From: an uncultured Roseburia sp.
GTDB taxonomy: Bacteria; Bacillota; Clostridia; Lachnospirales; Lachnospiraceae
Length of the DNA: 64,000 bases
Direction: 5' to 3'
Assembly (NCBI GenBank): GCA_947649645.1
Contig: CANSSP010000006.1
Span: 62,001 to 126,000 of the forward strand
Below the pieces are notes generated by a model that was given only the letters and a program-made list of their open reading frames with translations, was not told the DNA's origin and did no database searches. This document shows positions 33,399 through 33,561 of this stretch, piece after piece (position 1 is the first letter of the stretch; every line of letters begins with the position of its first letter). A program made the translations under genes and the position numbers.

Positions 33399-33425
33399 GT
33401 TGATATAATACGACATTATATCAAA
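33399..33425. repeat. Left inverted repeat (recombination site) of invertible element
   Basis: GTTGATATAATACGACATTATATCAAA; reverse complement matches 33535-33561 at 26/27; internal dyad TTGATATAAT-ACGAC-ATTATATCAA. Confidence 0.93.
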
Positions 33426-33433
33426 ATTGTCAA
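33405..33433 (-). promoter_or_regulatory. Promoter inside the invertible element, currently pointing leftward (predicted OFF for the biosynthetic cluster)
   Basis: On the - strand: TTGACA (33433-33428), 17-bp spacer, TATTAT (33410-33405). Confidence 0.8.
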
Positions 33434-33534
33434 GAGTAGTATGGAGGAAACAGTTTTTTTTTCGCGTATGCCGGGACATTTTAAAGTGTCATTGCGTTGC
33501 AGAAAAGGGACTGGGACGGGAAGAGGGAAAATTA
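33426..33534. other. 109-bp segment predicted to invert
   Basis: Flanked by 27-bp inverted repeats and directly downstream of the tyrosine recombinase stop codon. Confidence 0.85.
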
Positions 33535-33561
33535 TTTGATATAATGTCGTATTATGTCAAC
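33535..33561. repeat. Right inverted repeat (recombination site) of invertible element
   Basis: TTTGATATAATGTCGTATTATGTCAAC; central spacer GTCGT is the reverse complement of the left-site ACGAC. Confidence 0.93.

Follow-up and report, generated by a model that had tools for sequence, protein, structure and literature searches.

A predicted invertible promoter between a tyrosine recombinase and a type II FAS/PKS-like gene cluster in an uncultured Roseburia

Invertible promoters are well known for surface structures, and those of gut bacteria were reportedly profiled with PhaseFinder by Jiang et al. (Science, 2019). The targets of gut-bacterial invertons profiled with this tool are mainly exopolysaccharide, pili and SusD-type uptake (PMC11892184). 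The locus described here lies in a stretch of 64,000 nucleotides from an uncultured Roseburia sp. (contig CANSSP010000006.1 of assembly GCA_947649645.1), which was analysed as a whole and is called the window below. It resembles the published gut invertons in having a short promoter segment between inverted repeats, a recombinase nearby and an expected ON/OFF control of the adjacent operon. It differs from them in its target, which is a FAS/PKS-like biosynthetic operon, while theirs are mainly surface functions.

The cmr and flagellar switches of Clostridioides difficile likewise rest on site-specific inversion ahead of an operon, and their host also belongs to the Clostridia (PMC8844915, PMC5386303). 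Four loci related to the one in the window share a further trait with these switches, a c-di-GMP-I riboswitch downstream of the inverton and ahead of the next genes (L037:7079-7163, L038:718-802, L039:1305-1388 and L045:693-777). A flippable promoter that feeds a riboswitch-controlled operon would amount to double control, as in C. difficile. In contrast, no c-di-GMP-I riboswitch was found in the window, its -10 box is part of the repeat, the recombinase gene is next to the element and the cargo is metabolic. In the Escherichia coli fim switch, too, a recombinase inverts a promoter that is flanked by inverted repeats (PMC8844915), but its repeats are short, whereas those in the window are long dyads. 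With the Xer systems (XerC/XerD, XerA and XerH with dif), the locus has in common the recombinase family, the catalytic residues and a dif-like site layout, with two arms about a short spacer. However, two inverted copies that are 109 bp apart would invert a promoter and not resolve chromosome dimers. No inverton assigned to a biosynthetic cluster was found in the literature searched, which was partial and mostly outside subscription journals, so that one may be listed in a supplement. The predicted mechanism is thus a known one, and a biosynthetic target is unusual.

The element has a total length of 163 bp. It consists of a left repeat (33399-33425, plus strand) and a right repeat (33535-33561, minus strand), each of 27 nt, which match in 26 of 27 positions (96% complementary) and enclose the 109-bp segment that is predicted to be invertible (33426-33534). 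The left arm immediately follows the TGA stop codon (33396-33398) of the recombinase gene. Both arms are dyads with an asymmetric centre, TTGATATAAT-ACGAC-ATTATATCAA on the left and TTGATATAAT-GTCGT-ATTATGTCAA on the right, and these centres are oppositely oriented. The only mismatch between the arms is located in the outer right half-site. The repeat scores 24, compared to a maximum of 13 over 20 shuffles of the 3.8 kb around the site. In the 3.07-Mb genome, only these two arms match the site pattern with 0-1 mismatches, other matches carrying 3. An earlier sequence-only reading had described the repeat pair, and this proved correct to the base; the 10-5-10 dyads with oppositely oriented centres that it proposed can be read in both arms.

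A promoter (33405-33433, minus strand) is directed leftward, antisense to the 3' end of the recombinase gene. Its -35 box (TTGACA, 33433-33428) is within the loop and its -10 box (TATTAT, 33410-33405) is within the left repeat, with a spacer of 17 and 11 of 12 positions agreeing with the consensus. On the right-hand side, the equivalent -35 position (33527-33532, plus strand) reads GAAAAT. When 33399-33561 is inverted in silico, TTGACA at 33527 is joined to the TATTAT that ends at 33555 on the plus strand (33527-33555), so that the promoter faces the cluster and a leader of about 50 nt precedes the ATG of accDA at 33613. The leftward promoter, the GAAAAT, and the position and leader length after inversion had all been described in that reading and were reproduced. 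As stated there, the sequenced state is predicted to be OFF. Thus, as in an inverton, inverted repeats flank a short segment beside the operon that it would control and, as far as can be judged from the sequence, the segment carries a promoter whose direction would decide transcription.

We consider the element to be very probably an invertible promoter (inverton) that makes the cluster phase-variable and that was captured in the OFF state in this assembly, a reading that both the sequence and the comparisons support well. According to this model, the adjacent tyrosine recombinase would bind the two dyad sites, cut at the asymmetric centre and invert the DNA that they enclose. As sequenced, the sigma-70-type promoter would point away from the cluster, firing leftward and antisense to the recombinase. 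Once the segment is inverted, the -35 box would join the -10 box in the right repeat, and accDA and the FAS/PKS-like operon that follows would be driven from there. We infer that, in this strain, the recombinase flips the element; an active promoter and a single transcription unit covering all 20.7 kb are likewise assumed.

Even if the element inverts, transcription of the cluster might start at a different promoter or reach it from the recombinase gene by read-through, with the invertible promoter mainly yielding antisense RNA that tunes the recombinase. A scan found no plus-strand terminator between the recombinase (33398) and accDA (33613), so that read-through could leak into the cluster in the OFF state, and the OFF promoter points into the 3' end of the recombinase gene in the window and in six relatives. 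We regard this alternative as unlikely, since no other near-consensus promoter faces accDA in 33399-33612, where the best plus-strand match reaches 9 of 12, and since the promoter in two relatives (L040 and L041, see below) is directed at another cluster that also starts with accDA, and the distance is as predicted. RNA folding of 33399-33612 yields a strong long hairpin, as would any 27-bp inverted repeat. It was not counted as a terminator because no T-run follows.

The recombinase (32559-33398, plus strand; 279 aa) is XerC/XerD/XerA-like and is the predicted invertase. It matches Pfam PF00589 (Phage_integrase) with an E-value of 2.9e-20. The best NCBIfam models are XerA, XerC and XerD, each scoring below its curated cut-off (XerA 124 versus 220, XerC 91 versus 335, XerD 89 versus 330). 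These scores are far too low for a housekeeping XerC/XerD recombinase acting at dif, and this assignment was rejected. Among solved structures, its profile comes closest to XerC-like 4a8e, XerA 5hxy and XerD 1a0p. Catalytic residues were assigned by motif, and R139, K163, H227, R230, H253 and Y262 are invariant in nine aligned recombinases (relatives being 38-86% identical to that of the window). The protein is thus predicted to be a site-specific recombinase with an intact active site. Upstream of the gene, a terminator-like hairpin with a T-run (32423-32460, plus strand; GGATACC..GGTATCC, then T8) was detected by eye and is absent from the output of the terminator/promoter scan. It suggests that the recombinase has its own promoter downstream of the hairpin.

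Close relatives carry the promoter in both orientations. In six of them (L036, L037, L038, L039, L043 and L045), TTGACA-17-TATTAT is directed leftward at +7 to +35 relative to the recombinase stop codon, as in the window (OFF). In two metagenomic loci (L040 and L041), it is found at stop+131/132 to +159/160 and faces accDA (ON), which is the place predicted for the window after inversion. For the species of the window itself, only the OFF orientation was seen. Over a block of about 41 bp, which extends from the recombinase stop codon across the repeat to just past the -35 box, the window aligns with L037, L038, L039 and L043-L045 at 92-93%, while the remainder of the loop does not align. In L040 and L041, this block is reversed and located at the far end of the loop. 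The cluster behind L040 is distinct from that in the window; its accDA is followed by genes for a phosphopantetheinyl transferase, a metallo-beta-lactamase-fold protein and an acyltransferase. The two ON examples could be locked, since the L040 recombinase gene (L040:2146-2970) holds an in-frame TAA and the left arm of L041 is degraded. In L040, where the promoter faces the cluster, the TAA possibly marks the fixation of the ON state.

In this context, it has to be weighed whether the element is a former inverton that has lost its activity in this lineage or become locked OFF there. The single mismatch in the outer right half-site would fit such a case, as would the decay in L040 and L041 and a loop deletion in L042. 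On the other hand, the recombinase in the window is full-length with all catalytic residues kept, the arms still match in 26 of 27 positions, and L036, the 86% identical relative, retains the whole arrangement. Inactivity in this lineage is therefore quite improbable.

The deletion in L042 was seen by comparison with L043 (L042:5903-5905 versus L043:5905-8589). It comprises 2.7 kb, begins inside the loop and removes the right repeat, with a microhomology of about 3 bp at the joint. Such a deletion would be expected to lock the switch.

The recombinase belongs to a subfamily that was found in 90 of 401 sampled Lachnospiraceae genomes, some of which have several copies (search with a profile from aligned recombinases, threshold E <= 1e-60). 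Its sites (ACATAAT-N4/5-ATTATGT) resemble dif and are typically paired and located downstream of the recombinase gene. A strong inverted repeat occurs within 700 bp downstream of the recombinase in 19 of 28 subfamily loci and upstream in 2 of 28. Spacers are identical in inverted orientation at 26 of 30 loci, while shuffling gave a mean of 2.6 and a maximum of 9 (2,000 shuffles). In an enlarged set, 50 of 52 loci with at least two sites have a pair that shares an identical inverted spacer, and 33 distinct spacers occur; in this count, any pair was allowed where a locus has more than two sites, and close relatives are among the loci. Tyrosine recombinases require matching spacers for strand exchange, and the spacer match thus marks the paired sites as recombination partners. 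One locus (L119 in G354) has three dif-like sites downstream of the recombinase, two of them in direct orientation, which could permit deletion besides inversion. A lone match of the site on a viral contig (L060) falls within a phage-like gene; it was attributed to chance and discarded.

In principle, the dyads might be static operators for a recombinase-like regulator that binds the DNA without inverting it. Both arms are nearly perfect palindromes and lie within the promoter region, as would be expected of operators. Yet partner sites share their spacer despite the 33 different spacers, and in L039 both spacers have changed in concert (ACGAT in both arms, while its relatives have ACGAC). In addition, the catalytic residues are intact and one loop of the subfamily was found inverted. 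We consider static operators very improbable.

This inverted loop is that of L107 (G465). It matches the loops of L110 (G147) and L127 (G465) on the minus strand, with 76-77% identity over about 120 bp, while the flanks match on the plus strand and are collinear on both sides. Global alignment of the L107 loop scores +22.5 in inverted and -23.5 in the same orientation (shuffles: -20.1 +/- 4.7). By alignment, the L107 loop is actually inverted relative to L110 and L127. Loop comparisons with L144 were discarded because of high scores in both orientations (low complexity). The invertible-promoter interpretation proposed in the sequence-only reading thus draws support from both orientations at the predicted positions in relatives, from the spacer match in the subfamily and from the apparent inversion of the L107 loop.

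Assembly breaks were also considered as a sign of mixed orientation and were dropped. A comparison of low contig ends showed no enrichment (4 of 67 downstream versus 3 of 73 upstream), and a later count (10 downstream and 0 upstream of 79) is from a non-random set with filled-in values. The L036 contig terminates on the last base of the right repeat, which is at most suggestive in this respect.

In the genome G058, the recombinase contig stops on the last base of the right repeat and the cluster genes are on another contig, so that recombinase and cluster are presumed to be linked there. In a further assembly, proteins with 99% identity to the recombinase (P0002) and to AccDA (P0125) are each reported from a 6,369-bp contig, which suggests this linkage in a second strain. 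The relative with 86% identity has a different neighbourhood on the left side of its recombinase, and the unit thus appears to move between genomes. This difference, together with the resemblance of the sites to dif, might indicate that the repeats are not a regulatory switch but left over from the att/dif-like sites of a mobile element that brought in recombinase and cluster. However, attachment sites would flank such an element and not pair up between the integrase and its cargo, and in all close relatives the two inverted sites are spaced by about 110 bp and the promoter embedded there keeps a fixed position. We give this explanation hardly any credence.

The cluster that the promoter would control (33613-54366, 20.7 kb) has all its genes in one direction (plus strand). 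Gaps between them are mostly tiny, the largest being 222 bp (35609-35831). Domain searches identify the first gene product as a fused acetyl-CoA carboxylase carboxyltransferase (AccDA, 33613-35232), followed by an acyl carrier protein (35325-35609) and a FabF-like beta-ketoacyl synthase (35831-37105). The next genes (37113-42203) were assigned by the same searches to a GxGPTG protein, a thioesterase, an unknown protein, a BtrH-like acyltransferase, another unknown protein and a second BtrH-like acyltransferase. The protein with the N-terminal GxGPTG motif was judged by eye to be FAD-oxidoreductase-like. A FabZ/FabA-like dehydratase, a second ketosynthase-like (chain-length-factor-like) protein, a FabG ketoreductase and a second SDR are encoded at 42209-45318. 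The remaining part (45322-54366) codes for a class III aminotransferase, two phytoene-desaturase-like FAD oxidoreductases, an ABC/FtsX exporter, a radical SAM/SPASM protein and a phosphopantetheinyl transferase. Discrete KS, KS/CLF-like, ACP, KR, DH, thioesterase and PPTase proteins are thus encoded in one run, as in a type II FAS/PKS-like cluster. No characterised cluster matched it above the curated cut-off. The distinctive protein encoded at 37113-38375 has a counterpart in just one other genome of the genus, G058, and none was detected in 400 further genomes sampled from the family.

The genome contains a second AccDA (G000:C11:64660), which is 54% identical to that of the cluster, and a second ketosynthase, which is 36% identical to the cluster copy. 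They are encoded less than 2 kb apart on a contig other than that of the cluster and are presumably the housekeeping copies. The cluster copies therefore look dedicated, and the OFF state should be tolerable for growth.

The 222-bp gap before the ketosynthase gene contains a long imperfect inverted repeat (35762-35823; GTGAGAAGAACTTCT ... AGAAGTTCTAAGTCTCAC) without a T-run, possibly a processing or attenuation hairpin.

The sequence-only reading had called a biosynthetic cluster an unusual target, and this is borne out by the other subfamily switches, which mostly precede pilin, exopolysaccharide or other surface genes. Behind 29 further subfamily loci, we found genes for signal-peptide surface or pilin-like proteins, exopolysaccharide-type operons, a C39-peptidase/HlyD-type exporter and others, as judged by eye from translated ORFs. 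A BLASTP search with 13 cluster proteins revealed no likeness to the window cluster among the genes downstream of these loci; a biosynthetic cargo is thus not the rule. This kind of inverton is ordinary for Lachnospiraceae, while a biosynthetic target (in the window, probably in G058, and in L040/L041 with their distinct accDA-led cluster) is unusual. In one locus (L103, G440:C6:12400-24340), an inverted repeat with TTGACA-16-TTTAAT is located upstream of genes for a C39-peptidase ABC exporter and a HlyD-like protein, and phase-variable bacteriocin export is possible there.

We lean towards the more general view that, in gut Lachnospiraceae, a dedicated mobile cassette of recombinase and inverton places the synthesis of a small molecule or an unusual lipid under phase variation, with only the flipped subpopulation producing it, and that cassettes of this family have been joined not only to surface and export operons but also to two or more distinct accDA-led clusters. 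If this is true, gut biosynthetic clusters may be silent in culture or in assemblies because of a DNA switch in the OFF state and not because of a missing signal, and locking the switch ON could end such silence. Bet-hedging at the DNA level would also join the ways in which gut bacteria use specialised metabolites. With its recognisable dif-like sites, the recombinase subfamily provides a search handle for many more switches.

Downstream of the cluster (54556-62555), the window codes for a VWA domain protein, a PP2C phosphatase, a Ser/Thr kinase, GrpE-like and Hsp70-like proteins and PPK2, which is a eukaryote-like signalling set.
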